DNA of 64,000 bases from Bimuria novae-zelandiae CBS 107.79 (taxonomy: Eukaryota; Ascomycota; Dothideomycetes; Pleosporales; Didymosphaeriaceae), in contig ML976684.1 of NCBI GenBank assembly GCA_010015655.1, positions 448,209-512,208 on the forward strand, written 5' to 3'. The translations under genes and the position numbers were made by a program. Shown in pieces: positions 34,190 to 54,310 of this stretch. How positions within the stretch are numbered: the first letter of the stretch is position 1; the number at the start of each line of letters is the position of its first letter. The notes beneath the pieces are model-generated. The model saw only the letters and a program-made list of their open reading frames with translations. It was not told the origin of the DNA and ran no database searches.

Positions 34190-35186
34190 AGGTTGGCTAG
34201 ATCGGCCCTGTTCCTAAAGTATGGGTTCAGCAGTGTATAGTGAGGCGACTGGCTTTGTGTGGGCGGTGATGCTTGGATCTCAAACATCCCAATTGTCCAT
34301 GGCTACTTCGGTAGTTAGAGGTACATTTAGGATGCAGCTCTAGATGATTACGACTGGGCGCTCACTGTACAATGTTACCACGGATATATCTGCTTCATAA
34401 GATGAGGAAGATTATGAGGCAATCCCTAGGGGTTACGATTAAGCTCATCTTCTGAACGATGCCATCCACGGTCCACTCCAAATATTGCTAAAATGGTGAA
34501 CAACACGATGGCAAGAAAAGCATTATAGGAGCACGGGAACGTATTTTATAATCAGTGGGTTTCTGCAGGGTCAGATTACGGGCAGTCTTTGCTATCTCAA
34601 TCGACTCTCTGCCAGGACTATGGGATGTTGAAGCGTCAGCAGAGAGTATCATCAAACCGACAGGATCCACACCGAGCTTGCCCTCTTCCTAATTAGGGTA
34701 CATCACTTTGAGTCACCACAACGGCCAACAAATGAGCCGCAATAGTGAACCGTCCGCACGGACTCTGAGCAGCTCAATTCAACTCGGTATTTACATAAGA
34801 TAGTGGAGCAGTCATGGCCAGTTCTCGTTCAACTTCGCGTACGAGTTCGGGACTGAGATTGTCCGTGTTGGTGGAGAGATGCTTTCGGAAGGTGCTTAAT
34901 ATTTGGTAACGGCTTTCCGTAGAAGATGCAAGACTTCCGAACTCGTTTATTGGAGACCGGCAACCACTTCGTTTCCCCTGGAGACGACGCTAGACTCCAG
35001 CGGAAATTTCCACGACTCTCTCACTGAGACTCGCTTAGAGCTTCGAGCATAAAAATTCTTTCTGGAATTCGGCCTCAACCTTCCACACACCCCACTTCGC
35101 CTCGCTCTCGAAGAGTTCTACTTCTCTTTACTCCTGCGGCAGCCACTTCAATCACTCTGCTATACCATTCTTCCGTCACACCCACA
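34190..35186. other. AT-richer intergenic region
   Basis: About 1 kb without a supportable gene. The last 150 bases contain CATAAAAA (35048-35055), a TATA-like box placed as expected for the secreted-protein remnant at 35187, then CT-rich leader. Confidence 0.45.
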
Positions 35187-35548
35187 ATGAAGATCTTCAA
35201 CAAGTTTCTCGTCTCCGTCGTCGGCCTCGCGGCTGTTGCATTCGCTCGTCCGGCCGAGTTCGCGCCGCAGTTTCCTCAAGGCAGCATCTGAACACCTCCA
35301 GTCTTGGAGACTGAGACGTCGATCTTCAATCTTCCCACTCACCTTACCCCTGCGAGCTGGGCCGGTCCGACACCAACTACATCGTGGGCTCCCATCGAAA
35401 CCTGGACCGGTCCGGTGCCGACTCCATCGTGGGGCTCTGGAACGCGAGGCCTGACAATCGTTCCAAGCCCGACGCCGGTGCCAACAACATCGGTTATCTC
35501 GAAACGACAGGAGATTGGTCCCAAATACTTCGGCATATTCCTCGACGT
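35187..35548 (+). pseudogene. 5' half of a secreted Pro/Thr-rich protein gene (reciprocal chimera, left)
   Basis: ATG at 35187 opens a clear signal peptide (MKIFNKFLVSVVGLAAVAFA) and RPAEFAPQFPQGSI, then TGA at 35289-35291. The same frame continues with a Pro/Thr/Trp-rich stretch of imperfect repeats (SWAGPTPTTSW, TWTGPVPTPSW) and SKRQEIGPKYFGIFLDV. At 35549-35551 the sequence switches to AA9 coding DNA in a different frame. In the same frame as this half, the missing 3' half is found on the minus strand at 52710..52408. The gene is thus broken by rearrangement and carries one nonsense codon. Confidence 0.7.
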
Positions 35549-35550
35549 CC

Positions 35551-36325
35551 CGCTGAAACAAGGGCGCAAAGGCCGGCTCCACCGCCACCTACACCGTCAA
35601 AGCCGGCGACAAGATCGGCTTCAAGCTCTTCAACAACGAGTTCATCGAGCACCCGAGCCCCGGCTTCGTCTACGTGTCTAAGGCCCTCGGGTCCGGCGTC
35701 AAGGACTACGACGGCAGCGGCGACTGGGTTAAAGTCTACGGGGCTGCGCTGTGCGGCAGCAATCCCGGCCAGGACGCTCAATGGTGTTCGTGGCAGAAGG
35801 GCCGTCTAGAGTGGACTACCCAGAAGAACATTCCACCGGGAGAGTACCTCGTACGCGTGGAGCATATTGGTCTGCACCAGGCCCATGAGGGCAAGGCTCA
35901 ATTCTACATTGGCAAGTCTCCCGGATACAAAGTGGATGACTTTTTCTTGCAAAAAGAAGGGCCTTTCTTTCGTCTGCTTAAGACATCAACAAGTACTATA
36001 CCTCACTTTTATAAAACTTCACTGACTTTATACCCGCGGGTTGGCAGAATGCTACCAGCTCAAGATTGATGGAGACGGTGGAGGTAACCCGGGGCCTTTG
36101 AATAAGATTCCTGGAATCTACAAAGCTAACGACCCCAGCATTGCGTTCAACAAGTGTAAGTAATGACATAGTCTGGAGCAGTAGCGGTCTCTCGAACGCA
36201 TCCGCACCCTCGAAATCGCGCGTGGAACAATATATCCCATCTTTTGTGACTTTGTTGATCATGTCTCAGGGAACAACCCAAAGTCCTATGTCATCCCTGG
36301 ACCAAAGGTGTGGGATGGAAAGTAA
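35551..36325 (+). pseudogene. 3' half of an AA9 lytic polysaccharide monooxygenase gene
   Basis: Three exon pieces, 35551..35911, 36048..36155 and 36270..36325, read as an AA9 enzyme from the first conserved cysteine region to the stop. The join uses a GC-AG intron (donor GCAAGT at 35912) and a GT-AG intron (36156..36269). Signatures: AGSTATYTVKAGDKIGF, the second copper-site histidine in EHPSPGFVYVSK, DYDGSGDWVKVY, GEYLVRVEHIGLH, the axial tyrosine in AQFYI, CYQLKI and the end VIPGPKVWDGK. There is no signal peptide or N-terminal copper histidine. The codon expected to be Cys (TGC) is TGA at 35554-35556. The missing 5' half lies at 52895..52714 on the minus strand. Confidence 0.85.
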
Positions 36326-36476
36326 ATACTACCCTGAAAATCAGTTGCTAGGCAGTAAGGGCTTGTAAATACACTCTCCTAGCACAAAAGGGCAGTTCAA
36401 ATATCAACCATACCTTCCCAGGGGTATATCTCTACCTCATGAATCCACACCCAACATCACTACTCCACCAGCAACG

Positions 36477-39400
36477 TTACCCACCCAACCTCTCCAATAC
36501 AGCCCTCACCTTCTCTAGTAGCTCTGGTACTCTGAACGGCTTACTCACCACATCATCCATGCCTGCCCTAATCGCCGCCTTCGTCTGCTCCTCCCTCACA
36601 TTAGCCGTGACCGCGATAACCGGCACGTGCCCTTTTAACACACCCTGTTTTTCCATGTCCCTTATACGCCCAATCGCTGTTAGCCCATCCATCTCTGGCA
36701 TTTCTAAGTCCATTAAGATAACCGACAGCGGGCGCCCGCCGGACGTTTGGAAAGACGTTGTGGCGAGCACGTCGAGCGCGAGCAGCCCATTGTCAGCCGT
36801 GTACGTAGTGCAGCCAACTTTTTGGAGCTGCTTAGAAAGCACCTTTTGGTTAACCATGTTATCTTCTACTATGAGAATAGCGAGGTCGGAGTTTCCGGTG
36901 GGAGACGGCTTCAGTGGGGGTGGCGAGGGGATGGCGGCGGGGCTGGAGTTCGAGCGTAGCGAAGCTTGTGCTGTAATCCGCGCTGGTAGACCTGCTAGAG
37001 GTGCTAGACCTAAATCGACCGATCGTTTCGGTGCTTGTGCTCTTCTGCCTTGTATGAAGAAGCCGAAGGTGCTTCCAACGCCGGCCTCCGAGGAGACGCC
37101 GATCTGGCCGCCGTGGAGTTCGGCGAGTTGGCGCGAGATAAAGAGCCCCAAGCCGCTGCCACCGTAAGTTACATGTGTACGATGTGAGGCCTGAGCGAAT
37201 CTTTGGAAAAGTAGACGTTTCTCATCCTCGGTGAGACCGCAGCCGGTATCCTCGACTTTGACGCGAATGTACAGTCGCTCGCCCTCCCCCCATTCTTCAC
37301 CGGCGGTAATATCAATTAGGGAACCCCGTGTCGGAATATGCTCGAAGCCTTCGCTCAGAGGTGGCTCTGTCGCGGCGCCAAGATAGACCGCAATGGATCG
37401 TTGACGGGACCCTGCTGTAAATTTGATGGCATTGGTTATGAGGTTAACCGTTATTTGAAGCAGTCGACTAGGATCTAGATACACCCAATCAACATCAAGT
37501 AAGCTGAGCGATTCGTGCGGATGAAAAATAAAATCAATATCTTTTGCTTGCACCTCTGGCTTGAACATGCTCATGGCGCGACGTATGATATCTGTCGGTT
37601 GTACAGGGACCGGTGTGATTAGTAGTAAATTTGAGTCGAGCTTTGAAACGGTCAAAATATCGTCCACGATAGATTTCTGATGCTGAACACAGAGCGCAAT
37701 GTTGTTGGCGGCGTCGATGCACTCCTCAACCAATTTAGCGTCCGAGTTTGCGAATGGGTGATTGGAAAGCGACTCGCGAATATCGTCGGCACAGATCAAG
37801 ATCGCGCTCAAGGGATTGCGCATCTCGTGAGACGTTATGTCGATGAATCTAGAGAAGTACCAAGTCAGCTAAGCTGGATCAAATCCGCGTTGTCTTCGTC
37901 TTATGCGTGAACTCGGAGTGGAAAATACGCCCGCTGTACAGAAAATGCGCGGCACACATAAGCGCTACTTACTCATTTTGCTGTCGCTTCGTCTCCTCTG
38001 CTTCCCTCAGTTGTTGATCCTGTAGAGCCTGTGCCCATTTGCGATGCGAAATGTCAGCAAGGCTACCCATGACAGACTTGATCTTTCCGTCTGCACCAAT
38101 CTCGGGCTGAGAAGTAGAAAGCACCCAGTACTCGATCGGGTCGCCCGCGAGATCTCGCGGTACGACGTTAGCGTGCGTAAGACGTAATTCCTCTTGTCTC
38201 GGTTTGGAGTCCTTCATCATCTTATTCCACATTGTCTCTGCTCTTCTTCGACTTTCTTGGTCCATTAGGTTTAGGAATGCAAATTGGCTGTCATCGTATC
38301 TTTCATGTCCAGTCATCTCATAGTAACGTTCGTTAGCTTCGAGTAGTACTCCGTCAGGACCAAACAGATACATGCCCAGTGGAGACAGCTCAGTCATACG
38401 TCGCATTCGGCTTGCTTGGAGTGCAAGTTGCTCGCTTAGTTGCGCCCTCTGTAATGTTGCGACCTCTGCTGCATTCCTATTCTTTCGAACCTCCTCTTCG
38501 AAGAGCAAGAAAGACGCGAGTGAGCTCGATAAATGCCGATTGAGCATGTAGACGAAGGCCTTGTATTCTTCATCGTATGCTCTCCGCGGGTTGATACCAA
38601 GCAGTAGGAAAGCACATACATTGTCGCTGTTGGTCGGGTGCACAGGTATCATGATAGCCTCTTTGTAAGGATCTCCGTAACCCCGACATTCAATACCCTC
38701 AGTCAACTCATCCGGCAAGCTTCCATTTCGTCTGTGCAATATCGTGGGTTCGCGAGTTCGCATTGCTTCACGGAAAGCTGGAACGAAACCTTCTTTTGAG
38801 CGCTTCAGATCAAGCTGTAAATCGGATAGGCTTCAAGTCAGTGAATGTCCTAAAAGAGTGGGCGACGACCTAGGTGTATGGTTTTGCTGCACAAGCGAAG
38901 GATATTTCCTCTTTCCTTTGCAGGGAAAAAATATCCACTTTATGGCTGGTAGACTTACCTTTGGCGGTGAAGCGGGGTGGCCGTTGGGGATACCAACAGC
39001 ACCTTCCAAGACACATGACCGACCGGACATGGAACTACCGGACGAATGAGAGGCGGCATCTGTGTCATCCAAATCGGAGATTGAGTACACTTCCCACAGT
39101 TAGTGAGCATAATGAGTGAACGAATGATGCGATAATGCTAATGTGGTAAAAGATTTCACGCCGCCGGGACGCATATTCCTGAGAGATTGTTCCCCCCGGC
39201 GTGGACCTGCGTCTCTTGAGCATTGGTGCGGTGTGTACTTACATAAGGCAAAGGGAACATCGTATGGGTTATTTTGGAGCCCTTCTATGAGGCCTTGCCA
39301 GAACATTTTTATCGTTCTTGTTTCAGCTATCTTCTCCCCAATTTGTCGCAAGGTCTGGAGCCGGCGGTGGCTTATCGTTTGATACGTCGTCTCAAATGGG

Positions 39401-40780
39401 GCATTGTAGAAACCGAGAACTACGATCGTGATAACCGTTAGTCACGGCTGAAATGAATGAACAAAATCGGAGCGGGTGAACAATTCCCGAAACCTCCTTA
39501 TTTTAGTCCACTAAGACAGCTGAATTTGTCATGCATTCGGATGTTAACGTACTTCGTTGTGTACCGCCATACATGGGTGTGAAGGACCAAGAGAAAAACG
39601 TCTCTTCGAGATATCCGTATCTATGGATGGGTAGATAGTCGTTCTCCTTGCGGACGCTTTGTCCGGTTCGAGCGCATTCTCGAAATATTGGAGCTAAGCC
39701 ATTCCAGGTCTCACTGAAAGGCCCAGAGAAGCCGGTGCCCATTAGCTCTGGATGCTTGTTGCCAGCGACCTCGTTTTTATAAGCTTCGTTGTAAAGCATG
39801 GTCAGTTCTTCGCCCCAAAATAGCGAAGCTGGATGAGGGTTTCTCATGAGCAAATTTGCGATCTCGCGGAACTGCAAAGACCAGGTTTTCATGGGTCCTA
39901 AAGGGGTAGCGCTCCAGTCCACACTACGGGCAAAGATCATGTGTTCGGTCAATTGACCTTGCGGATTCGCGACTGTCCAGTCAGGTACCCCATTTGCCGG
40001 CGTCGCCAGTGGAATAGATGCTCCGCTTCTAGATGTTTCGTTGGAAGTGTCTCTTGATGTAGTCGGATTTGACACGCGCCCGTGCCTAGTCTCAGGGTAG
40101 GTAGGCGTAAATGACACTCTTCTAAAATCGAGTTCGGCTTCGGTCTCGAGAGTTGCGCGCGGTGGTTCTTTCGCTATAACAGTAGCCATGGGTTCATCGA
40201 CAGACCGCAAGGGTTGCTCGGTCGGATCCTTTGGGGCGTCCCCTATCAAAGTTGCCTCACTGTGTGGCCCCAGACCAAACAGCTCGGGCTCAGGATTGCG
40301 AGCAACGTTATGCCATTGCATTCCAGAAATAAGTCTCCAACGCTGTCGAGCAGTTGAGCCCGTCCAGAGCAGGCCCTCGTAAAGAAAGGTCTGAGGGAAG
40401 ACATCGCGGGAATCATCAAATTTGCTTACACTCGTAGCCCAGGACCTGAATCGGTTGAACAATGTCTGATCGGATGCCGTGACACCAAACACCGTATTCG
40501 AGCTTGTGATTCTATCCAGCAGTCTGTCGTGCAAGCGTAGAGCCGCATTGCAGAAGATCGGCCGAACACGTTGCTTGTTGTGCCCATAATCAAGAAGATC
40601 CGAGTCCAAGTCGAGCACAAACGTGGGTCGCGGATCCTGGTCAAGAATCTCTTGGAAACTTACTACGCTCAACTCCTGTAAAGCCTCCTGGTTGTGGTCG
40701 TAGTCGTCTTCGGGATCGTCCGCCGATTCGGCAGACGGTGCAGCGTACGGCTGCACCAACGGCAACGGCTGCTCCGCCAT
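36477..40780 (-). CDS. Hybrid sensor histidine kinase (PAS/GAF-type N-terminus, HisKA, HATPase, receiver)
   Basis: Five exons, in transcription order 40780..39553, 39419..39243, 39089..38959, 38814..37973 and 37848..36477, encode 1,249 residues. Introns are 133, 153, 144 and 124 bp. A fungal cytosolic group of hybrid kinases: the N-terminal region has a PAS-like sensor (VDWSATPLGPMKTW, MRNPHPASLFWGEELTMLYNEAY), then a GAF-like segment (YKEAIMIPV), then a PAS domain (SPLGMYLFGPDGVLLEANERYYEMTG). The kinase core follows: H-box FIDITSHEMRNPLSAIL with His about 800, N-box NLITNAIKFT, G1 VEDTGCGLTEDE, G2 GGSGLGLFISRQLAELHGG. The receiver has VEDNMVNQKVL, phosphoacceptor Asp about 1173 in ILMDLEMPEMDG, and SKPF. 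Expected partner is a histidine phosphotransfer protein. No membrane segment. Confidence 0.92.
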
Positions 40781-41262
40781 TTGGGCGGTGGTGTGGGTTG
40801 CTCAGTTCGCAGGATCGTTTGCATGGGCATATTTCCTTGGGACGTCATTTGTCGTTAATGCCTGCCGAGTTCAGCGCACGTGTTCCGCCGCACCTTCCAT
40901 TCCGGGGGATACAAGACTACACGCAATCGATTGTGACACAAATGATGCGGAGGCTACATGGTGTGCTATAGTTTTGCTGCTCCCCACAGCCAGACAACAT
41001 TGTCTAGTTTAAAGTTGCTGTTCGAAATCTCTCAGCGGTCTATTGGGCGGTGTTACTCGTGTTTCGCTCTCTAGTTCGGCTTAATCTGCCCTTGCAAGTG
41101 GGGTTGTCGAAGCGAACCCTATCAAAATCTGTTGTACAGTCAATGCAGAGCGCCAACGAATCTGTGTCATCGATTTTTGGCGAGTATTCGTCGCCTAGCT
41201 GTAGTTTTGCCTTGAATATATCTATTCAATTATTGAAAAAAATTTCATCAACAACCAATCAC
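40781..41262. other. Promoter side of the histidine kinase gene
   Basis: About 480 bp with no gene seen. It should contain the kinase promoter (minus) and the region upstream of the interrupted tRNA. Confidence 0.4.
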
Positions 41263-41457
41263 GGTCTTATGGTGTAAGTGTCTACCAGACGCACATGACA
41301 AGGCCACATGGCTAATTCCATCACAGCTAGAGGTGTAAGTTAGATAGCCATACAAGCATACACATGATCCTAATAGAAACTCAGATGATTCTCGCTTAGG
41401 GCGCCAAGTCCTGGGCACATTTGCGAGAGGCCCCGCGTTCGAATCGCGGTAAGACCC
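41263..41457 (+). tRNA. Interrupted tRNA-Pro (AGG) gene
   Basis: The 3' part is unmistakable. The anticodon stem CTCGC (41391-41395) pairs GCGAG (41423-41427); the loop TTAGGG has anticodon AGG at 41398-41400. A 20-base intron (41402-41421) at the canonical 37/38 site contains CCT that can pair with the anticodon. T arm CCGCG-TTCGAAT-CGCGG spans 41433-41449, acceptor 3' strand TAAGACC is at 41450-41456, and T9 follows at 41461. The matching 5' acceptor strand GGTCTTA plus TGG is found at 41263-41272, but about 100 bases of unrelated DNA separate it from the anticodon arm where a D-loop of a few bases is expected. The 9-base GGTGTAAGT occurs at 41271 and again at 41332, as if part of the insertion were flanked by a duplication. 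It is likely an inserted, non-functional copy. Confidence 0.6.
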
Positions 41458-42007
41458 GTCTTTTTTTTTGCCGCCTTTTCAGAATCTCTTGTGCGTGGCT
41501 ACTTTCTTTTTATATAGGTTGGCAACAATATCTCGCGTGTATGAAGGGTTAGTTCTCGTCTTGGCCGCAAAGTTTAGACCGCTGTAGTCTTTGTGCATTA
41601 CAAAGTGTTCAATCAAGTCAAATGCCGGCAAAATGCAGAGCGCTCTACTGGCGGGTTTCATGGAGGCCTGGGTTGCATTACAAAGTGCTTAGAGTTACAC
41701 CACGATGAAAGCGCAATTAAGAAATGTGCACTCATAATTCGTGGCGGTTTCCGGAGACGGCGTTTTTCTAACAGAAGGCACGCTCGCCCAGTAGATAGCA
41801 AAAATAGTTCTTCAGTATCTTACGCTGTCTTTTCTGATGTTTGCGTTGTCAGCGATACGTTCTTTGCTCCCCTGTTGGGCTTAGAGCAGGAGCCGCCCAA
41901 TCAATCTCCACATGGCGGCCGCGGCTTCCGTCCTACACCAGCGAAACTTTGTAACTCGCCCAACGGCATCGGGCTTTTATTCTGCACACTACATCCGCGC
42001 AGCTAGC
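41458..42007. other. Intergenic, tRNA terminator and ceramidase promoter
   Basis: Begins with the T-run terminator. A short near-repeat GCATTACAAAGTG occurs at 41591 and 41682, both in AT-moderate DNA. No gene seen. Confidence 0.4.
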
Positions 42008-43187
42008 ATGTCCTGGCCCTACGCAGAGAGTCCTGGGCACGGTGCTTGGGGCACGCCAAGCTCGAACCACAAGTCAGTCGGGTACCCCTTTCGTGTAAAC
42101 ATCTGCTAACCGGGCCAAGCTTTTGCGAGGAGGTACACGTTTGCAGCCTCAATGGAAAGAATCGTCTGCTGACTGTTGTTGGAGGACTACGTGATCACGC
42201 ACTATGTCGCCGAGTTCGTGAACACGCTCACAAATTTGACTTATGGTACGCCTGCGACGTGTACCTTGTAGAGGCAAGACTGATCTATTTAGTGATCTAC
42301 GGCATAAACGGCCTTCGAAGAGTCGGGCCTCGCAAAGATGGTGGGTTGTTCTCGACTTTGGCGTTCCCTTACTGGGGTCTCATCGGCGTCGGTGTGCTCT
42401 CAGCCTGGTTCCATGCCACATTGAATTATCACAGTCAAATGGGTACGCTAACATCCACTCTCATTTATTCATTTGGGTTTTTCTTCGTCCCGAGGAGAAC
42501 GGCATTAACAATGTCAGGCGACGATCTTTCCATGTTTCTCGCCGTAGGAGCACTCCTCCACCAGCTCCAAACCTTCAACAAATCTCCATCCGCTCGTCGA
42601 ACCATCACCTTCGTCATCCTGGGCGTGCTGATCCCGGTTTCCATCTACCACTGCTGGGCTGACGAAATCTACGTCCACCAGATCACGTTCGCCACCATGA
42701 TTATCCTATGTGGTCGAAAGACCCGCCACCTCGTCCGCGAACGCATCCCCAGCGCTGAGCAAAGGAGTCGACTGCTCAGTCTGGCGAATTCTGGCTTGGG
42801 TGAGTCTATCGCGTTGCATTTTCGAAAGGGGTGCTAACGTTAGGAAGGGGCTGGGCTGTTTGGGTATTTCCTGTGGAACATTGACGTGCACCTCTGCGAC
42901 TATGTTACGAGCCTGAAGCGTACGATTGGCATGCCGTGGTCGTTTTTATTTGAGCTGCACGGGTAAGTGCTACCTGTCATGCCGCTCCCAACGCCTGCTA
43001 ACAATATACTTTTAGATGGTGGCACATCTTGACGGGCATCGGATCGTACGTAGGTATCGCAGTCGTGGAGTACATCGTCACAGTGGAAGATGGAAAGACG
43101 CATAGAATCGAGGATGGTTTTGTTTGGCCCGTTAACACTGTCCTTCGGGACCTTGAAAGCGCGTCATCGGGAAAGAAGACACAGTAG
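42008..43187 (+). CDS. Alkaline ceramidase (YPC1/YDC1 family)
   Basis: Seven exons, 42008..42072, 42120..42132, 42185..42245, 42293..42442, 42518..42799, 42848..42962 and 43016..43187, encode 285 residues. Exon 2 is a 13-base micro-exon coding NFCEE. The enzyme hydrolyses ceramide to sphingoid base and fatty acid in ER/Golgi membranes with seven helices and a catalytic zinc. Family signatures: FCEEDYVITHYVAEFVNTLTNL, AWFHATLNYHSQMGDDLSM (zinc-site His), and ELHGWWHILTGIGSY (zinc-site His pair region). The intermediate helices are hydrophobic as expected. Every residue I would expect for activity is present. All acceptors follow a CTAAC or similar branch; the exon-6 acceptor is GAAG at 42847, not the nearby TAG, because only it keeps the frame. 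Confidence 0.92.
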
Positions 43188-43873
43188 GGCAGAGAACAAC
43201 CTTTCCTGAAGAGAATTGCCTCATCCAGAGGTGTCGCGATCAAAGCATCGTATCGTTTAGCAAATACCGAACGCCTTACTCATAGTCATAGGAGTTAGTG
43301 TAGATAGCAGCCTCACAATACATTAAGAAGTTCAAGCCGTCTCTTAACTCCGTCCCAGCCAACTTCCGGTTCCGTCAGCTTATACACTCCTTTGGCCAAG
43401 AACAGTCGCCTATCGGACTAGAGCTTTAATCTGCTGTACCACTCACCCGTGAGATTACGTGTTCCAGTGCACCCTTAAAACACCGAGACCGAATTGCCAT
43501 AGAGGCTCTCAGGCGAGTGGTGAGGGCATGGCATTAGCGCGGGGTTCCTCAGAGCTAACAGCGGGGCGAGGCTTAAAGCTCGCTTTGTTGACGTAAAGGT
43601 AGAGAACGCGAACGAATCGCGAGACAGATGCCGACCAGGTAAAAAGTACGTCGTGGGATATATAAAGCGAGAGTGTATCAGAGAAGTTTCTTCTTTCCAT
43701 CTCAAGGTCAGACAGCTTCCATCACGCTACATTCAAACACAGCTGCAACACCGTATCAGGACCACTGTGAGTTGCCCAGGATAGGCAGGACGACGGTCAA
43801 GTGTACTGACTTCAGACTTCAGACTACATCTACCCAGCCAATCTCGCAAAATCCCCCAATCTACCCAGCCACC
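43188..43873. other. Intergenic, AKR promoter with TATA box
   Basis: No gene. TATATAAAG at 43659-43667 lies about 207 bp before the aldo-keto reductase ATG, followed by a CT/CA-rich leader. Nothing else was recognised. Confidence 0.5.
43659..43667 (+). promoter_or_regulatory. TATA box candidate for the aldo-keto reductase gene
   Basis: TATATAAAG, a canonical TATA element, 207 bp upstream of the ATG at 43874. The long CAACAC/CAGACTTCAGACT leader between them supports transcription starting just downstream. Confidence 0.55.
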
Positions 43874-45001
43874 ATGGTCAAGCTCCTCGGCAAAGAAGTC
43901 GGCCAGGTCGGCTACGGCCTCATGGGTATGTACACTTCCCTCTACCCCCAAACCATCACAACTTCTCTAACCCTCCCCAGGCCTAACATGGCGCGCCGAC
44001 CCCCCACCGCAAGACCAAGCCTTCGCCGCCATGCGCGCCGCCCTCCAAAACGGCGCCACCTTCTGGAACGGCGGCGAACTCTACGGTACGCCCTCGCGCA
44101 ACTCCCTCCAGCTCCTCGCCGAATACTTCACCGCACACCCCTCCAATGCGGACAAAGTCGTGCTCTCCATAAAAGGCGGATGCATCCCAGGCACCATGGC
44201 GCAAACCGACGGCTCGCCTGCAAACGTAAGGAGGAGTATCGACGAGTGCCTGCGCGTGCTCGACGGCAGGAAGTTCCTCGATCTGTTTGAGGTCGCGCGG
44301 ATTGATCCGAAGGTACCGGCTGAAGAGTCCATTGGCGTGATTGCCGAGTATGTGAAGGCGGGCAAGGTCGGGGGGATTAGTCTGAGCGAGGTGAATGCGA
44401 ACACGATCCGGAAGATCCACGCTATACACCCGATTTCGGCCGTCGAAGTCGAGTTCTCACTATGGAGCACGGATATCCTGGAGAACGGGGTAGCGAAGAC
44501 GTGCGGGGAGCTGGGGATCCCAATTGTTGCGTACTCGCCGCTTGGGCGTGGGTTCTTGGTATGCATATCCCCCTCCCTGTCTTCCTTTTCTATACCCATG
44601 GATGTGCGGGCGTCGATGTGCTAACGGGAAAACAGACGGGTCAGTTCCAGAAATTCGAAGATATACCCGAGACCTCGATGCTGCGGCACATGCCGCGCTT
44701 CCAGCCCGACGTGTTCGACGAGAACATCAAGCTGCTGCGCGAGGTCGAGAAGATTGCGAAGCAGAAGAACGCGACGCCGGGACAGGTTGCGCTCGGCTGG
44801 GTCATCGCGCACAGCGGGAAGAACGGGTACGCCGAGATCCTGCCCATTCCGGGAGCCACGACGGAGGCAAGGGTCAAGGAGAATACTGCGCCGCTGAAGC
44901 TGAGCGACGACGATATGGCGGTGATATCGGATATCTTGAAGAAGTTTCCTGTGCAGGGTCATCGGTATCCTGAGGCTCTGCGGGGACATCTAGAACAATA
45001 G
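43874..45001 (+). CDS. Aldo-keto reductase, AKR8 (pyridoxal reductase-like)
   Basis: Three exons, 43874..43925, 43981..44558 and 44636..45001, encode 331 residues. Introns are 55 and 77 bp. The opening VGYGLMGLTWRADPPP, the GATFWNGGELYG motif with the catalytic tyrosine, VVLSIKGG with the catalytic lysine, SLSEVNANTIRKIH, VEFSLWSTD, IVAYSPLGRGFLTGQ and the NADPH-binding PIPGATTEARVKEN end place it with the fungal pyridoxal reductase type (AKR8A, S. pombe plr1), a cytosolic NADPH enzyme reducing pyridoxal to pyridoxine. Close relatives reduce other aldehydes, so the substrate is family-level inference. The frames on the opposite strand are shadows. Confidence 0.9.
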
Positions 45002-45220
45002 AGCAATACCGCACCAGGAGAAGAGTCCAAGGACACCGTGTTACTCCGGAGTGGCGAAATATGCGAAAGCTGTAATCTCTCTTTGATTGAGTCCTGCAAG
45101 CTGCAAACGGAGTGGAAGTCATCTTAAAGCAAATGTTTAACTGTGTACACTCAACAATAGGGTATCCTTGCTGTCATCCATAGTCCTAAAAATGTCAAAT
45201 ACAATCCATACCTCCCAAGC

Positions 45221-46501
45221 TCATGACGTTGGTACTGGCATGTCTCCCGCCTGATCTGCCCTGTCTCCCTCGTCGTATTGACTGCGCAGCCACCCCTCCT
45301 CGCGCCACCAAGGTATCGTCCCGGCCTTGGGCTGGATCTGTAGCTTTTTCGAGGGGACAACATCTGCTTCCAGTTGTGCGAGGTAGTCGGGCCCGTCCGT
45401 CTCTCCAGCTTCAAGACGCCTGCGCTTGCCACTCTCGAGCTCGGCTTCCATGACATTCTCCACGAGCAGCTCCTTGGCAGCCCACTCGTCCTTTCGCTGT
45501 TTCTCGAGCGCCTCAGCCTCGGCGCGGAGCTTCTCTCCATCTTGAGTCGCCCAGTGCAGCTGCCGCCGAAGCAGGCGGAACAACTGGTCCGCTGGCAGGA
45601 GGAGCTCCCGCTCAGAAAAGTTCATGTCTGGCGGGAACTCCACCTCGGTCTCGTTGGTCATCGGATTCTGTACGTATTGGATGTTGTCGGACAAGTGGTC
45701 GGGCTCATTGCTTGGAGGAGGGAGAGTTGCGCTGTTCGGCGCATGCGACGAAGGTGAACCCGGCGTAGAGCCTTTCTCGGTGGACCTCTTTTCTTCGCTG
45801 AGAACGAGCTTGACGCGCTGAAACTTATTCGAGGGGTTCGACGAGTGGTGTTTCGGGACGGGGTCCGAGGGCCGCAATGCTTCGGTCTCGTGGACCGTCC
45901 GCATGTGCTTAGCTAGCGCATCAGAGCGTGTGAACGACCGGTCGCATTCTGTTGAGGTTAGCTATATCTGAGAGCTGTGGCTTCAAATGAGGGGCGTACC
46001 CGGTAGAGTGCAGTAGAACGGCTTCTCTCGGGTATGGCTGCGCATGTGCGCCCGGAGCGCATAGCCACTGGCATGCGGTATCCCCTTGCGGTTGCAATCG
46101 CTCCACTCGCAGCTGTACTTCTTCTGCCTCGTTCCGATGTGATCCTCGTGCAGGTGCTCTACTAGCCTGTCCATGTTCTCGAGGTCCCCCGTGTCGCAGC
46201 CGTCCCACTTGCATACCGAGACCTGGTCCTGGCCAAAGTCGTCTTCGGCGGACATGCCAGGATGATGCGGGGACGCGGGCACCGAGCCATCTGTGTCTTC
46301 TGAGAGCTCGCCAAGGTCGTCAAACGGCGGCATGTTGGAGGGCGGATCCGAGGGCGCGCGGGTCTGCAGACGCGGACGCTTGCTTGGGCGCGCAGCGGGT
46401 TCGTGGTCGGGCGTGTGTTCGACGCTGATGCGGCGACCTTTGACTTCATCCGGAAAGTCGTCGCTGGCGTAGTCGGAAAGATCCGAAGCGGGCGAATCCA
46501 T
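45221..46501 (-). CDS. iec1: C2H2 zinc-finger protein IEC1, INO80 chromatin-remodelling complex subunit
   Basis: Two exons, 46501..46000 and 45948..45221, encode 409 residues; the 51-bp intron is phase 1 inside the last zinc finger. The N-terminus is acidic and disordered. Three C2H2-type fingers follow: VCKWDGCDTGDLENMDRLVEHLHEDH, YSCEWSDCNRKGIPHASGYALRAHMRSH, and FYCTLPECDRSFTRSDALAKHMRTVH. The C-terminal half has TEALRPSDPVPKHH, VQNPMTNETEVEFPPD and RLLRRQLHWATQDGEKLRAEAEALEKQR, which is the IEC1-specific segment. IEC1 is a nuclear, Ascomycota-specific INO80 subunit needed for phosphate-response genes in S. pombe. Assignment rests on finger spacing plus the IEC1 tail. Confidence 0.88.
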
Positions 46502-47415
46502 TGTGGCGGCGACGGGGGTGTACGGGCTATGAACGGGCTGGGTGTTGAGAACACTGGACGCGTTGGGTCAGTCGGCACGGTAGCTCCAGGGTTGTCGGTC
46601 GCGCGCACAGACACGCCATTGGAGTGTCGAGAGCTCCACCGAACGCCTGACGAAGTTTCCTCACCCTCCACTGATCACCGAACAATTGACGCCGGCGTGA
46701 ACAATACACGTTCTAGATCGCAGTAAATGACGCTGACTTACTGCGCAGAACTAGCACTCACTGTAAGTAGCACTTCGCACTCTTTCACGTCCCCTGATGA
46801 TTTATTCGAGTTCTGCAATTCCAACGGTAAGCCCTACGGCGAGCCGCATGCGGAGTACTCTTACACTACATACACTTGATCTGATACCTTTTCTCGAGCA
46901 TTCAACATTGCTGCCTTGTGCTTTTTGCATTGCTGACTTTGAGAAGTAGCCTCCCATAAAATACTATCGCTCTCGATCCCATCGAAGCTGGTCACGCATA
47001 AGCCCTTACACACCTACCGCATCGCGTCAATCCGAGATCTGGGGCACGTAGTATCTTATGGAGGGCTTGTCTACATATTGGCTTCAGCTGGGTTCGCCGC
47101 CTGTGCAATTAGTATGCCGTGGGTCAATAGCACCAAAGCCACGAAGTCAACGTTCATGGGTAGTCTTCATTCAAAACAATTCATTATAATACAGAGGCCT
47201 ATGGTTCAAGCGATGCCTCATTCTCAGTGCTAGGAACTTCATGATGTTTCCCGCCTTCAAAAGATATTCAAAAGATATCGCCCTTACGTCGGCGGCCACA
47301 TCTGGCGCTCGCCGAGTCGTCACTTTTGCGTGCGACGACAATGTGCATGTCGCCTGCAGACGGATGGCCTGGTTCTTGCCGTAACAATATGCTTGACGGG
47401 CTCCTGAATCGCCGT
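46502..47415. other. Intergenic region between IEC1 and the small membrane protein
   Basis: About 900 bp, moderately AT-rich. It holds the IEC1 promoter and the 3' end of the membrane-protein gene. No supportable frame. Confidence 0.4.
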
Positions 47416-48103
47416 CTACCTGGCCTTCTTCTTTTCCGAGTGTGCCTGTGTGTTCTTGAAGGGGAAACCGCTTGTCCTCTTGTCTGCACCCGTCTTGCGA
47501 CTGATCCTGCCATCACTACTCGCGAATAGGATGCACCACATTGCAACAGAAAAGAGGAAGCCGCTGCCAATCGCGCCGAGCGCGAAGGAGAAGACACCGA
47601 CTTCGGTCCACATAGCGTAGCCGTAAAAGCCGAGGATGGCGTGGAAGAATGCGGTGATGGTAAGCGTGGGAAGGGCATAGGGTGCTTTAGGATCTTCCGC
47701 TGAAGTTGTTGCTCCTGGAAGCTGTCAGCTGCTGTTGCTAGTAACATCGCGGTGCAATAGTACCTTCCGAAAGTCGACTGCTTAATGGAACAGAGCCCGT
47801 CAAGAGAACGTTGAGTACGCCTATGGTAAGAAGGGCAAATCCGAGAGATCGTGAGAAGTAGACCTCGAGAGCTTTGGAACGGGTTAGTAGGAGCTGCAAG
47901 ACGCTCGTGTAGGAGCAGACGTACTCGTCCCCTCTCGAACTTCTGGCGAAAGGAGCGCCACGATCATGGTCGGCGAGGCGATCATAGGAGCAGCTTGAAG
48001 CGCCATCCAGGCCGCTGTTCCATAGCTGTAAAAGTAGTAAACCTATGCGACGCGACTGTCAGCGATCTCGTCATCCTTTGGCATTGCGGCGCCTTACATC
48101 CAT
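47416..48103 (-). CDS. Small multi-pass membrane protein, fungal family of unknown function
   Basis: Four exons, in order 48103..48098, 48042..47925, 47871..47764 and 47714..47416, encode 176 residues. The first exon is only ATGGAT, followed directly by a GTAAGG donor; splicing gives MDVYYFYSYGTAAWMALQAAP. Introns are 55, 53 and 49 bp. Four hydrophobic segments are seen: MALQAAPMIASPTMIVALL, SLGFALLTIGVLNVLLTG, LTITAFFHAILGFYGYAMW and VFSFALGAIGSGFLFSVAMWCILF, with a basic C-terminal tail (KTGADKRTS...SEKKKAR). I have seen proteins of this wording in many ascomycetes but know no function. The tail probably faces the cytosol. Confidence 0.85.
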
Positions 48104-48969
48104 ATTTACGTCGGTACTTGGCCACACGAGGATTTCTGGGGTTGTGTTGAGATTTGAGGTCAATTGAATGGTAGGGAGGCGTGGCAGGGTCGAGAAGTGT
48201 GAGATTTAAAAGACGTCTGCGAGGTGCCTCAGCTTGAGCAAACACATACGTCATGCGGCCCATTTCGGCGGACACCTTAGAATACGCTTACCCTTCTAAG
48301 CGAGGGGTAAAAGCAAGGCGGGGATCGACTGTCGAATCGAGCCTCATCTCCCACGGAGTCCCACCAAGAGCCAAGGATGGCAACAAAGGAATGTGGTTGA
48401 TATCGTGGTCTTTTCGCGTTTAGGCACAACCTCAATCCGCATCCATACAGACTTGGGTATCGACACATCAGAGAAGCAGCGTCGTGCTGGAGGTGGAAAG
48501 TGGCGCGCGCCACGGGTGGGAGATCATCCACGAAGGCTGGAAGATATATTAAGAGGATGGGGTATGTCGTTTTGGGCCATGCAATCTAAGGAAAACCATA
48601 CAATATCCATTATGGGTATGGCTGTAGTGGACAGTCTGACGAGCCCTGATCAGTGTTTTCGAGCATCGCGCTTACTGATTCCACGTTCAGCGCTCCTTGT
48701 ATGCAGTTTCTCAAGGTCGGCTGTGTGAAGGACGAGCTCTCGCACGATTGTAAGTCACCGGTCACTGATCCATGTACCGTATACGATGTTTGTATAGATT
48801 CATTGATCTCAGGTTACCCATGACCACTGTCTACCGTCTCCCACGCCATCAATCCGCCCTAGAACATACGAGATTCGCCGGCCCTGGGAATAAGACCATA
48901 AAGAAAGTCAATCGTCATTGGGTCGCCCGAGGTGCGAACTTAAGAGAAGGAACGTGCAACCCTCATGCC
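48104..48969. other. Intergenic region
   Basis: About 870 bp holding the membrane-protein promoter and the 3' end of the next minus-strand gene. Frames at 48393-48728 lack a start context and similarity. Nothing else seen. Confidence 0.4.
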
Positions 48970-49591
48970 TCAGCACCAGTCGTACTTCTTGCAGGCCGTT
49001 TTGCACTTATCGAACTTGCCAGTGTCGATCTGACAAAAATTGAAGCAAGACTTTGGATCGAGCCTGCACTCGACCCAGCGGTATGTGGTGCAATGGTCGT
49101 AGTGACGATCACAGCAGCGGCAGTTAGCACAAACGGACGATGAAGATACTTCGGGGTCGGGGTCTGGTACCTTGCACAAGACGCTGATCGGTCCGTCCAT
49201 GTACTCCGCCAGGGTGGCGGGGTACTTGACGCTCCCGGTAGTGGCGTCTTTGCACGCTTTGTCACTAAGAGATACATAGTTAGCAATCTAGGTCTACCGC
49301 GAGAACAATCACAGTTATCTGGCGCACCAGATAGCCGTGCTAGGTGAGGGGCGCTTACTGGTGGATCTCGCAGGTGAAGCCACTCTTGACAACGTTGAGC
49401 TTGGTGAAGGTAAGGCTGGGTCCGGGCAAGTTGTCGTTACTGCTCTTGGGTATCGCAGTGCAACCAGTCGACAAGTCGAGCTTTACTGCATCACCGTAGA
49501 CGAGTGTTGCGACCTTCGTCACTGCAGCGGCGGGGACGGCCACGGCGCTGGCGAGCGCGAGGCCGGAGAGAACGGTGATGAGGAAACGCAT
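48970..49591 (-). CDS. Small secreted cysteine-rich protein (effector-like)
   Basis: Two exons, 49591..49359 and 49264..48970, encode 175 residues; the 94-bp intron is phase 2. A signal peptide (MRFLITVLSGLALASAVAVPAAA) precedes a mature chain with about 15 cysteines: STGCTA, GFTCEIHDKACKD, VLCKV, SVCANCRCCDRHYDHC, VECRL, KSCFNFC, KCKTACKKYDWC. Cys-dense pairs (CANCRCC, CFNFC) suggest a disulfide-knotted, apoplast-stable fold. A TATA box (TATAAAAC, minus strand 49692-49685) lies about 95 bp upstream. No known family is recognised; small secreted cysteine-rich proteins of plant-associated fungi are often effectors, which is inference. It lies inside the proposed inverted block. Confidence 0.8.
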
Positions 49592-51093
49592 GGTGATTGT
49601 CTAACTCGGGTGGTGAAGAGAGCGGTGAGGTGGAGCTGTGGAGAGAAGAGTGGTGAAGCGACGATCGAGGTCCGAGGCGTAAATGTTTTATAGAGACTGC
49701 AGGGTGACTTTTGATATTCACAAAGGGTGACAGAGGCTCGAGCAAACGGGCAAGAGCCTAGCCGCGTGTCTAAACGAAGCAGGGGTAGTCAGAGCCGTAA
49801 TTTGACCTTTTAATTGAGTTGGGGGCACAACGGTTTGAGGCACGGGCCCGACGCGGTTGATACTGAGGCACAGCTCGAACTAGGGAAGGTACGATGCACA
49901 CAGCCGAAGCTTCCACACTTGAGCCTCAGGCCGTGCTAATGCACGTTGTCATGATATCTTGCAGATCAGGCCATCTACAAGTGGAATAATTAAACCAGTG
50001 TCTAAGAGAAGAAAGAAGAATTCAAATATCCTGTTCCATGTTAGGGTCGAAATGTCCAGAGGTAATCTACACGACTACGTCGACAGGAGGGCCCATTCGC
50101 CACCTACCTGACAAGAGCTAAACTAATCACGGAGGCGTAATAGTCTGTTGTTGAGCGGAAAATACAAGGAAAGACTTCCGAAGCTTCTGCTCGTGCCTCG
50201 CAACGCCGGAACGCGTTCCGCAGAGGGAGGAAAGGAGATCAAAGTTGCAGCAATGCTCTGTAGGTGTGCTAGCATGAAGAACAAACTGCTGTGACCTTTT
50301 AGTAATATTTCAGGGTGTTGGAATGCTTGCAACCTGATTCGCCTTTGCTCCTTCCGCGCCGCACGGTTAGTGTGCCTGTAACCCACGACACACATGACAT
50401 GTGCCTCATCGAACAAAACCCTCAATTTTAAAGCCTTCTTATTACTAACGACAATGTTGGACAGTTTATGGTTCGTGCTAAGCCATAAATAGGAGCTAAC
50501 CTTCAAGTACACATGTGAGCCGCAGGAGTGCTAACTAATCGGAAGAGGAGAGCTGTTTGAAGCGTCTGTTAAGGGACCTCGAGAAAGAGAGAAACATGTG
50601 AAGCGAATTCCAACCATCGTCGCGTGGTGCTACCATCAATCAAGATTCAAACAAATTGTTTGGGGGCCCAACTTTGATTTGCAGGGAGTACACAGGCAGG
50701 CCAGGAAACATGTCGAATCTAGCCAACCTGAACCATGAGCACCGCTTTTGGAAGCGCAATCTTACTCTCTTCTGCATCATCCCTTCACCATCTACAATAA
50801 TAGAAGGCCGTCGAAATCATTATCCTCCAGCTTGTTGTTCCTTCGCTCCCTCCGAGGTTTGGTGGCGCTGGTCCATCTCGTTAGAGCTGTTTTAGTCTTC
50901 CGAGACGGAGTGCTCCGATCTGTCCCCAATTAGCGACCACTGTTACCTAATTCTACGGGCACCTACTCCACAAACTGATGGCAGTTGTAGCTCCTGAACA
51001 AAGGCAGGAGATCTCTAACATCATGGTCGTATATTTGATCATATGACCCGACCACCGAATGGCAACCTGTGTCGCCCGCGTCACTGTTCAAGA
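49592..51093. other. Intergenic region, 1.5 kb
   Basis: AT-moderate DNA with no convincing gene. The frames at 50123-50512 and 50656-50933 lack starts in good context and any similarity. It contains the promoter of the gene ending at 48970. Confidence 0.4.
49685..49692 (-). promoter_or_regulatory. TATA box candidate of the cysteine-rich protein gene
   Basis: TATAAAAC on the minus strand, 94-101 bp before the ATG at 49591. Confidence 0.55.
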
Positions 51094-51822
51094 TCAATGC
51101 TCATCCAGACCACTGTTCATGTAAGTTTCGACGTACTTGTAGAAATCGCAATGTCTTCCCGGATAGACGGTCAGGTAGGCAAATTCCTTGGGCATGTTGT
51201 AGTCGTTGCATGTACGGCCGCAATATAGAGGCGTGCTGATTGGTTTACCACCTGGTTTTGTGAGATGGCCACAGAGAGGCGCAGGCACGTGCTGGGACGT
51301 AGCCTCGGGGGATTCCACAGAATCGGGAAGATCACGCTCCAGCTCCTCGGTGGCAGCTTCCTCAATACGTTGAGGTGACTTCACGCACTGGTACGCTTAA
51401 TGATGAGTCCCATCGAACTGATGATCACGGAACGGTCCCGAAATCTGCTCACCGCCGCCAGCGCTGAGGTCGCAGTTCAGCTCGCTGCAAGACCATTAGT
51501 TCTCGAATTATCCACTTCGTATGCGTGTTAGCACACTTACTCGTAGAAGGTGCAGGTGGTGGAAGCGTTTATGTCGAGGTAGTGATAATTCGTCACGTTG
51601 GAGACTATGTATTTTTCTTTGCATGGCAGCCAGATGCCATCCATGAGATTGTGACCAATCACTGTCTTGAGGTGGGCGCAGAAGCTTCCGGCAGGGACCT
51701 GGGAGAGTACCGGGGCGATGAAGAGGGCTGAGACTATGTTAGTTTTGCAGATTCTCCGCTCGATTTGACTGATACAGCTTACAAGTGAGGAACACAAGCG
51801 CCATGGTCAATAGGCAACACAT
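51094..51822 (-). CDS. Secreted cysteine-rich protein, four exons
   Basis: Exons in order 51822..51783, 51727..51541, 51484..51453 and 51395..51094 encode 186 residues; an in-frame second ATG at 51804 would give 180. Introns are 55, 56 and 57 bp. The signal peptide (MALVFLTSLFIAPVLS) is followed by a mature protein with paired Cys: SFCAHL, WLPCKE, TTCTFYDELNCDL, AYQCVK, then PLCGHL, LYCGRTCNDY and RHCDFYK. The two C-terminal motifs (LTVYPGRHCDFYK) resemble YIILEYGVYCDFFP in the broken gene at 52408, so the two may be paralogues. The 32-bp third exon and the AAG acceptor at 51396 are the least certain parts. Effector-like; function unknown. Confidence 0.7.
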
Positions 51823-52407
51823 TCTGTGGATTGGTATGTGGATCAAGAGTTCTCAGAGGCCTGAAGGCAAGTTGTAAGTATGTGGGGAGGGTCGAAGCAA
51901 AGGCAGGGAGGGCCGCATAAAGTAGTCGACCAGCGCCGAGGTTGGATCTCTCAAAACTCGTTCGCCTCTGCGGAGCTAATTTCGGGGAGTTCCGCTTTCC
52001 ACTTTTTGTAATTGTTGATACAAACAGGCATGTTAAAACGGGCTACGAACGAAACGGCGCGATGACGTGGATTCTTATTCAGCCATCACGCAAGACTTTA
52101 TTGGAGACTGAGCTACATCTTATCTTCTGAAAGAAGGGCTTCAGAGCTGCTAAATTTTGGCATAGACATCAAACGAGCGTTTGTCGTGGATACGAATCTC
52201 ACCGTAAGAATGTGACTAACCTCAATTGGACGGGCACACAAGAATCACCGCATATACAGAACTCAACAGGCAGTAACTTTCATTCGATTATCTCATGGTA
52301 TCATGAAGCCACATTGGGAAAGGTAAACCGGTCCATGCTACTGCTAGGACTCTCCCATATCCAATGTAACAAGTGAAAATTGCTCACGTAGGGTGTTCCC
52401 GTCTCTC
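51823..52407. other. Intergenic region between secreted-protein genes
   Basis: No gene seen. It includes the promoter of the 51822 gene and the 3' flank of the broken gene at 52408. Confidence 0.4.
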
Positions 52408-52710
52408 TCAAAGGGCAGGAAGAGTACCGCACTCAAAGTCCTTCCCATGGAACTTCATGATGGGGATGTTGGTGATAGGACCCTTCCATCGCAGAGGCCC
52501 ACCATCGGCGAACGGCTGGCATCCGTTCGAAACACTGTATTCAATGTTAACCAAACGGTTCCGCACAATATCTATGGTATACAGGGTCACTTACGGAAAG
52601 AAATCGCAATAAACACCATACTCAAGAATGATGTAATCGGCGTCATTCGGCACAGCATTCCGCTGACAGACCTCAGGCTCCACGGTGATGTTCTTAGCAT
52701 GGAGGCTGTG
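52408..52710 (-). pseudogene. 3' half of a secreted cysteine-containing protein gene (reciprocal chimera, right)
   Basis: Exon pieces 52710..52595 and 52534..52408 (60-bp intron, phase 2) read HSLHAKNITVEPEVCQRNAV..., YIILEYGVYCDFFP, VSNGCQPF, KDFECGTLPAL and stop. No start or signal peptide belongs to it. Upstream is AA9 coding DNA in another frame. Reading across 35548 on the plus strand into this half, frame and splice phase are consistent with one continuous secreted protein. Its Cys motif resembles the gene at 51094. Confidence 0.7.
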
Positions 52711-52713
52711 GGG

Positions 52714-52895
52714 AGGTCGTTGGAGTTCATGAGCTCGCTGGTGAAGGCGGGGTTGTAGGAGTTGGAGTTCTTCCGCGTGTAGGCGTACTCTCCGCCGATT
52801 GATGCGCCGTTTACAATTAATCTGTTGAAGATGTAGTGTGAGTGAGCGAGGCGCGTAGAGGCAGCGAGAAGTGCTGTTACTGCGAAGGTCTTCAT
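52714..52895 (-). pseudogene. 5' half of an AA9 lytic polysaccharide monooxygenase gene
   Basis: ATG at 52895 starts a signal peptide (MKTFAVTALLAASTRLAHS) followed immediately by HYIFNRLIVNG, where the first His is the copper-ligating N-terminal residue of AA9 enzymes. YAYTRKNSNSYNPAFTSELMNSNDL follows and the homology stops at the CTC codon (52715-52713). The following DNA belongs to a different gene. A TATA box (TATAAAAA, minus 52986-52979) still stands 85 bp upstream. The matching 3' half begins at 35551 on the plus strand. Confidence 0.85.
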
Positions 52896-54310
52896 GATGC
52901 CGAAAATGTAACAGTGCTCTGAAATGGTAACTTTTTAAAGCGTCGAAGAGTGTTGATGGAAGCGTTGTGGTCCACCTGTTTTTATACTTCTCTCTTCCCA
53001 GTCACTTCAGACATAGTGCTCCTTCTGAGCGTCGTTCGATTGGAGGGAATACTGTTTTTCCAAGGTTCTCACTCAAACTTGGCTGTCCTACCTGTTAGAG
53101 TGTTGTAATTTCGTGTGCCTCCTATTCGCCTGCAATTTCACACCCAAAGATATCCGTATTATGGCACAGTGTCGCCAAGGTATGGCCAAGTCCTCGGATA
53201 TTTGAAGGAAGCCTGTCGTTTGGATGCGCCACGATCCGGGGAAGCGTAGATTAAATGCTTCAATACTACTGGTGACTAGGCGATAGGTGCCGAAGCTTGT
53301 GCACTAGTCTGGAGAACATGTCGTCAATGGTACATGAGCAGGATCAATTTACTCGGAGTTACCTCGTGGATTGTTTAGAACTATATATACCCTCCCGTGC
53401 ACTTTTGCATTTGTCAATTGGTCGTGGGCGTCCTTCACCCAGGAAGCAATATCGAGGGATCCATTGGTTGGTACGAAAACCTTTCCAAATTCTGGTCAGG
53501 CTGTGTTGGCCCAGTATTTATCCAGAAGAGTGATATGCGTAACTTGAAAACTGGTGATAAAATAAAGAAACAGGCTCTTCACTACGAGAAAAATTAAGCA
53601 ACATCTTTCCCTACCCAGGAACCCTTTCCCGCATCCCGGAAGTCTCTTGATGTAGAATTTTAGCGTTCAGCATCGTTATGGGTGATTATCTCACACAAGG
53701 ATATGTTGTGCGAACTCGACCAAGTTTTAAACAAATAAGAGAAGATTCTGCCGCAGGGTGCACAGCATCCAGACAATCGCCTTGTGTAGCTTACTTGTAT
53801 AAGCTATAGAAAGTCATCTGTCAGTTCATTCCTAGAGTGCGTGTGTGTTGCATGTCTTGACAATTCATTAAAGACAACAAAAAAGGAATGCCTCGCTCGG
53901 AAGGCTTCAGAAGATTTAAAATACAAGACCGTCTCCTCCCTTTCCAAGTTGTGGGGTTTCTATGAGATATAACAGTTGAAAATGTTGATCTGTTTTCTGA
54001 AGTGCGTCCGAGGAGAGAAAAGCTAATTATGAGAGCTTCTGAATGCATCTTCTCGCAAATGACCGATGGAGCTGTTCCAAAAGAAAATCTGTAGTAGTAG
54101 ACCATATGATCAAAGCAGAAAACCATATCACGTTAACCCAATTTAGCCGTTACAATATGCCGCCCAGCACGATCACGACAGATATATTAACGCGCTAAGC
54201 CTCATCAAGGCAGCCTCCACTCTACACTAGTAATGTGTTCAGCCTAATAACCTTAAGGTCTATCGTGGCTTGTAGAGCGCCTCCTACACCTATCGAATCT
54301 CCGCTCCGTC
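52896..54310. other. AT-rich intergenic region, 1.4 kb
   Basis: Low-GC stretch compared with neighbours, without a supportable gene. The minus frame 53821-54126 lacks any similarity. It contains the AA9 promoter remnant at its left edge. Confidence 0.4.
52979..52986 (-). promoter_or_regulatory. TATA box of the AA9 5' half
   Basis: TATAAAAA on the minus strand, 84-91 bp before the ATG at 52895. It is intact although the gene is broken. Confidence 0.55.

Follow-up and report, generated by a model that had tools for sequence, protein, structure and literature searches.

Inversion breakpoints that fall inside genes are a known cause of gene disruption: two genes are cut, reciprocal chimeras are left at the two ends of the inverted segment, and function is lost. 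In the Dothideomycetes, frequent inversions are the proposed cause of the scrambled gene order. Hane 2011 (PMC3219968) suggests that they occur frequently in meiosis. Ohm 2012 (PMC3516569), in its passages on breakpoints, describes simple repeats as over-represented within 500 bp of inversion breakpoints in closely related Dothideomycetes, infers the inversions themselves from whole-genome and scaffold comparison, and states that their exact mechanism is unknown. The locus described here resembles the mesosynteny inversions of those two sources (Hane 2011, PMC3219968; Ohm 2012, PMC3516569), as far as their consulted passages describe them, in that it lies within one contig of a dothideomycete and keeps genes close together though in a new order and orientation. 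Unlike them, it spans only about 17 kb, is resolved nearly to the base, and has both of its junctions inside genes. Compared with gene disruption by an inversion breakpoint in general, it is an event of the same kind, differing only in that both exchange points can be read. The kind of event is therefore already known; what is unusual is that the junctions are readable, almost to the base.

Bimuria novae-zelandiae is a soil saprobe. It belongs to the Didymosphaeriaceae (Pleosporales, Dothideomycetes), and Karstenula is placed in the same family (NCBI). In its lineage, an inversion of ~17.16 kb has very probably exchanged the ends of two genes, one encoding an AA9 lytic polysaccharide monooxygenase and the other a small secreted protein. 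The window, by which we mean the whole 64,000-base stretch of DNA that was analysed, is C29:448209-512208 in a genome of 77,445,255 bases and 191 contigs. Table 1 lists the features of the two junction regions. The coordinates and features given for both loci by an earlier, sequence-only reading of the window proved right when the sequence was read again.

Table 1. Features of the two junction regions and of the segment between them (positions are those of the window)
Feature	Position	Strand	Remarks
Secreted-protein gene, 5' piece	35187..35549	+	signal-peptide-like start, Pro/Thr-rich, KR site, 121 residues
Left junction block CGACGTCCC	35543..35551	+	8/9 bases in common with right junction
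AA9 3' piece, exon 1	35551..35911	+	Pfam AA9 match
AA9 intron, GC-AG ends	35912..36047	+	136 bases, dispersed repeat
AA9 3' piece, exon 2	36048..36155	+	aligned with relatives
AA9 intron, GT-AG	36156..36269	+	
AA9 3' piece, last exon and stop	36270..36325	+	aligned with relatives
Putatively inverted segment, about 17.16 kb	35552..52709	.	ends uncertain by C-run length
Secreted-protein 3' piece, last exon and stop	52408..52534	-	stop at 52410-52408
Secreted-protein 3' piece, intron, GT-AG	52535..52594	-	60 bases
Secreted-protein 3' piece, exon 1	52595..52710	-	
Right junction block CGACCTCCC	52711..52719	-	8/9 bases in common with left junction
AA9 5' piece	52713..52895	-	signal peptide, N-terminal His of HYIF, last residues NDL

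On the plus strand, the 5' piece of the secreted-protein gene is open up to the left junction apart from a single in-frame TGA at 35289-35291. The frame switches at 35551, from where the 3' part of the AA9 gene runs to a TAA at 36323-36325. The codons at 35551-35556 fill the two places between the AA9 pieces: the first encodes Arg, and the second, codon 2 of the 3' piece (35554-35556), is TGA at a place where the relatives printed have Cys. The sequence-only reading had the AA9 frame resume with CGC followed by the expected Cys codon; the CGC is there, and the codon at the Cys position is itself the stop. On the minus strand, the switch lies at 52710, where the 3' part of the secreted, Cys-containing protein begins; this 3' piece encodes four Cys. 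Introns with GT/GC-AG ends are kept in the 3' pieces of both genes. Public annotation contains the AA9 3' part alone, as P0003 ("hypothetical protein BU23DRAFT_466377, partial", Bimuria novae-zelandiae CBS 107.79), which begins at the codon after the TGA and differs from the window's 3' piece only in its choice of intron, which is not the GC-AG one.

Searched alone, the AA9 3' piece (172 residues) had 253 candidates, of which 228 proteins reached E<=0.001, and its exon 1 matches Pfam AA9 (PF03443) with 89.2 bits against a cut-off of 27.8 (E=4.6e-25, profile positions 51-164 of 207). The best 120 of the 228 relatives were used further, and the 5' piece was compared with them separately (blastp, E<=1e-3). 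Within this set the 3' piece matches 120/120 and the 5' piece 115/120, the five without a 5' match being P0003, which is the window's own annotated fragment, together with four proteins beginning inside or beyond the break region. When the gap between the two pieces is projected on the relatives (best 120 listed), it measures exactly two residues in 112 of 115 and one residue in the other three, in agreement with the earlier claim that the AA9 halves abut at the same codon. Both pieces also have the same closest relatives among the best 120 of 228, namely P0021 (Pseudopithomyces) and P0004 (Karstenula), to which the 5' piece is 87-88% and the 3' piece 80-84% identical, depending on the aligner.

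Taken by itself, the AA9 5' piece has no Pfam match at E<=1 or E<=5 and no PDB match. Its HYIF lines up with HYIF in the relatives printed, and we take the His, which directly follows the signal peptide at a presumed cut site, to be the AA9 copper ligand. Measured against the AA9 lytic polysaccharide monooxygenases P0004 and P0021 (PF03443), the parts of the domain are also present here, but in two places, and the locus is split and stop-bearing. With its pieces 17 kb apart on opposite strands and a TGA at 35554-35556, it is a broken member of the family rather than one continuous gene.

As read from the sequence, a single inversion with its ends near 35550 and 52712 is supported as the simplest account of this arrangement. 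Before the event, the secreted-protein gene (plus strand) and the AA9 gene (minus strand) would have stood in opposite orientations, and the inversion would be later than the divergence from Karstenula, which has a continuous AA9. At each of the two junctions, which face in opposite directions, one gene's 5' part now continues into the other gene's 3' part. This reciprocity is established for AA9 by 112/115 relatives and for the secreted protein by frame only. The single inversion had been proposed from the sequence alone, and the AA9 halves that abut in relatives, their opposite orientation and the failure of the genome searches to find a second copy all bear it out.

Both junctions lie within CGACSTCCC (35543-35551 on the plus strand, 52719-52711 on the minus strand), and the run of C that follows the T has three members at the left junction and four at the right. 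Since 112/115 relatives leave two residues between the AA9 pieces, the AA9 gene requires a C-run of two. Without any gain or loss of bases, the run in the other gene would have been five, one of the lengths at which that gene stays in frame, a fit that would otherwise be a one-in-three coincidence. In this accounting 3 + 4 = 2 (AA9) + 5 (other gene), no gain or loss of a base need be supposed, and the earlier explanation of the run lengths by exchange inside the run would hold with the frame kept. Both breaks would have been made and rejoined inside the common CGACSTCC stretch, with microhomology end joining as the likeliest mechanism. Agreement at 8/9 bases has a probability of 0.0009 for random pairs of window points, for a block that was chosen after seeing it. 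The window contains CGACSTCCC itself 4 times; 100 shuffles gave a mean of 1.39, and none of them had 4 or more. Neither chimera should be active: in one the frame ends after 34 residues, and in the other the AA9 His1 is present while the second His and the rest of the domain are absent.

The AA9 break looks young, because the AA9 pieces have drifted little beyond one stop codon. For each piece we took the 40 nearest among the relatives with 90% coverage or more (of 119 used, 113 reach this for the 5' piece and 116 for the 3' piece). In the resulting sets of 41 sequences, the 5' piece has changed at 0/27 near-invariant columns and the 3' piece at 4/87, the latter being tied with three others for the most changes. 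With 12 outgroups as the reference, the changes unique to the mature 5' piece number 0-1 versus 1-2 for Karstenula, and those unique to the 3' piece 7-15 versus 5-13; with P0021 as the sister, the corresponding figures are 0-2 versus 0-2 and 7-16 versus 4-12. These rates stay close to those of the sister. The pattern hints that the AA9 3' piece may be under relaxed constraint. As for the decay that the sequence-only reading described, each gene does have its one stop, but other changes in AA9 are few.

The same stops raise the question of order. Both genes could already have been dead, with the stops arising first and the inversion merely passing through two pseudogenes; each gene does carry one in-frame stop, and a single genome is compatible with either order of stop and break. 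We nevertheless consider this unlikely, given how little else has drifted in the AA9 pieces and given that 3 bases separate the AA9 stop from the C-run of the exchange, which may point to a link between this stop and the repair.

The two non-AA9 pieces appear to be one secreted-protein gene, as judged from the frame (1 in 3 by chance), the intron, the C-run accounting and elimination. Among 1142 word-sharing database candidates, the 5' piece (with X at its stop) matched none at E<=0.001, and in its own genome it found itself plus one meaningless match (E=0.37). The 3' piece had no genome match but itself at E<=1, and it has no solved structure at E<=1 and no Pfam match at E<=5. Codon usage places the expected frame first among the three forward frames for each whole secreted piece or exon, a weak signal whose scores are equalled by 6-10% of random windows. 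After the TGA of the 5' piece another frame scores higher (4.5 versus 1.4), and in exon 1 of the 3' piece one reverse frame is slightly higher (9.6 versus 8.0). What had been claimed earlier for this second gene thus stands as regards the frame fit and the C-run accounting, and stands less firmly as regards its unity, the 5' piece being without a relative at E<=0.001.

It is here that a more complicated history could enter, in which the AA9 gene was split in several steps (two overlapping inversions, or an inversion and a later loss) and the non-AA9 pieces are not one gene. Such a history could draw on the weak codon signal of the secreted pieces and on the lack, at E<=0.001, of a relative of the 5' piece that would confirm continuity. 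The frames nonetheless fit, the C-runs add up with no base gained or lost, and both non-AA9 pieces are open up to the junctions except for the one TGA, all of which makes a multi-step history distinctly unlikely.

Just inside the right break, 50966-51822 on the minus strand encodes a tandem pair of small Cys-containing domains, the first following a signal-like start at 51822-51820 and each with an apparent intron after C-x-F-Y. These introns resemble the one after CDFF in the secreted 3' piece, to which the domains are 19-24% identical. A TAA at 51399-51397 stands between the two domains, in the frame that runs from one to the other, and in a genome search at E<=1 each domain matches only itself. 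The two domains could be tandem siblings of the secreted-protein gene that the break disrupted.

The arrangement is known from one assembly only, and a false inversion in the public assembly, whether from assembly or from library construction, would be very improbable indeed: the junctions lie in single-copy sequence with nothing longer than the 9-base block in common and no long inverted repeat, the same break would be needed twice, reciprocally, and both of the split genes carry a stop codon, which is not a product of a misjoin. We regard the inversion as real and probably young, with the AA9 gene split by it and very likely the secreted-protein gene also.

When the DNA of 34500-37800 and 51600-53800 was searched against the genome, the window itself was the sole match over the length. 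Of the 9 further short DNA matches, seven fall on the AA9 intron, one on DNA upstream of the secreted 5' piece and one (89 bases) in the neighbouring kinase gene. A duplicated or hybrid genome, an idea that came from the size of 77.4 Mb, was considered as the source of an intact second region and rejected, as the window alone matches over its length. At the protein level, the best other genome match of the AA9 5' piece is 39% identical (E=0.012), and those of the 3' piece are 34-45% identical over longer stretches, with one 32-residue match at 59%. A Pfam AA9 search of the genome gave 50 matches, which fall into 34 places, this locus included, when starts within 2 kb are merged; the count is a lower bound. 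By these genome searches the locus appears to be the only close member of its AA9 group, though far from the only AA9.

A rival origin of the two AA9 halves, as partial copies made independently of each other from an intact AA9 gene at another place in the genome, is barely credible even with a family of about 34 places to draw on, since the DNA search found no second copy, the nearest genome proteins reach 39% (5') and 34-45% (3', longer stretches) as against about 80-88% in the closest other species, and the pieces end and begin at adjoining codons; the intact paralogue that the sequence-only reading had itself named as a counter-case did not turn up in the genome searches.

Two repeats lie near the left junction. 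The AA9 intron at 35912-36047, a dispersed repeat, has 7 further genome matches of 74-83% identity; they occur in either orientation, and some extend over part of its length only. The element could be a MITE-like introner by which a new intron arose; in a test for terminal inverted repeats it scored 27, within the range of 200 shuffles (maximum 32). Upstream of the secreted 5' piece, 34808-34955 is a 148-base repeat; contig C6 (L010) carries a copy of it at 89% identity.

With respect to mechanism, ectopic recombination between inverted repeats was considered and set aside, the long repeats expected at both breakpoints being absent. In 33500-54500 there are 8 inverted pairs of at least 16 bases, none with arms at both breaks; the nearest (23 bases, 83%, 34190-34212 / 50707-50729) lies 1.3 and 2.0 kb from them. 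TRF (score 30) reported no tandem repeat in 34500-36600 or 51700-53700, about 1 kb on either side, and by set thresholds neither break has a perfect simple repeat within 500 bp. The nearest such repeats are about 5.9 and 1.75 kb away, and 23% of random window points have one within 500 bp. The break pair fits microhomology end joining better.

In this respect the breaks differ from those treated in the breakpoint passages of Ohm 2012 (PMC3516569), having no simple repeat within 500 bp, although a single pair of breaks is no test of a statistical association. The sequence-only reading had seen in the event the process behind mesosynteny; with breaks that are free of the simple repeats associated with such inversions in the literature, that link is less secure than the inversion itself. 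More broadly, small end-joining inversions of this kind, free of simple repeats and transposons at the breaks and placed inside genes at very short common stretches, might be a regular source of gene loss and of gene-order shuffling in the Dothideomycetes, and the present inversion might still be polymorphic in the species, with intact and split alleles; we put this forward as a doubtful extension.

A young inversion whose exchange points lie inside genes offers a direct sample of end joining. The sample seen here has a block of 9 bases with a single mismatch, breaks without repeats and, if our inference holds, no net loss of bases. More such inversions could be collected by looking for reciprocal gene halves that abut in relatives. 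The effect on the fungus is probably small, because about 33 other AA9 places remain, none of those found being a close relative of the broken gene.

Well to the left of the junctions, at 6129-12353, the window holds an unbroken frame of 2074 codons that is very repetitive, rich in Lys, Glu, Pro and Ala, and carries many short tandem repeats.
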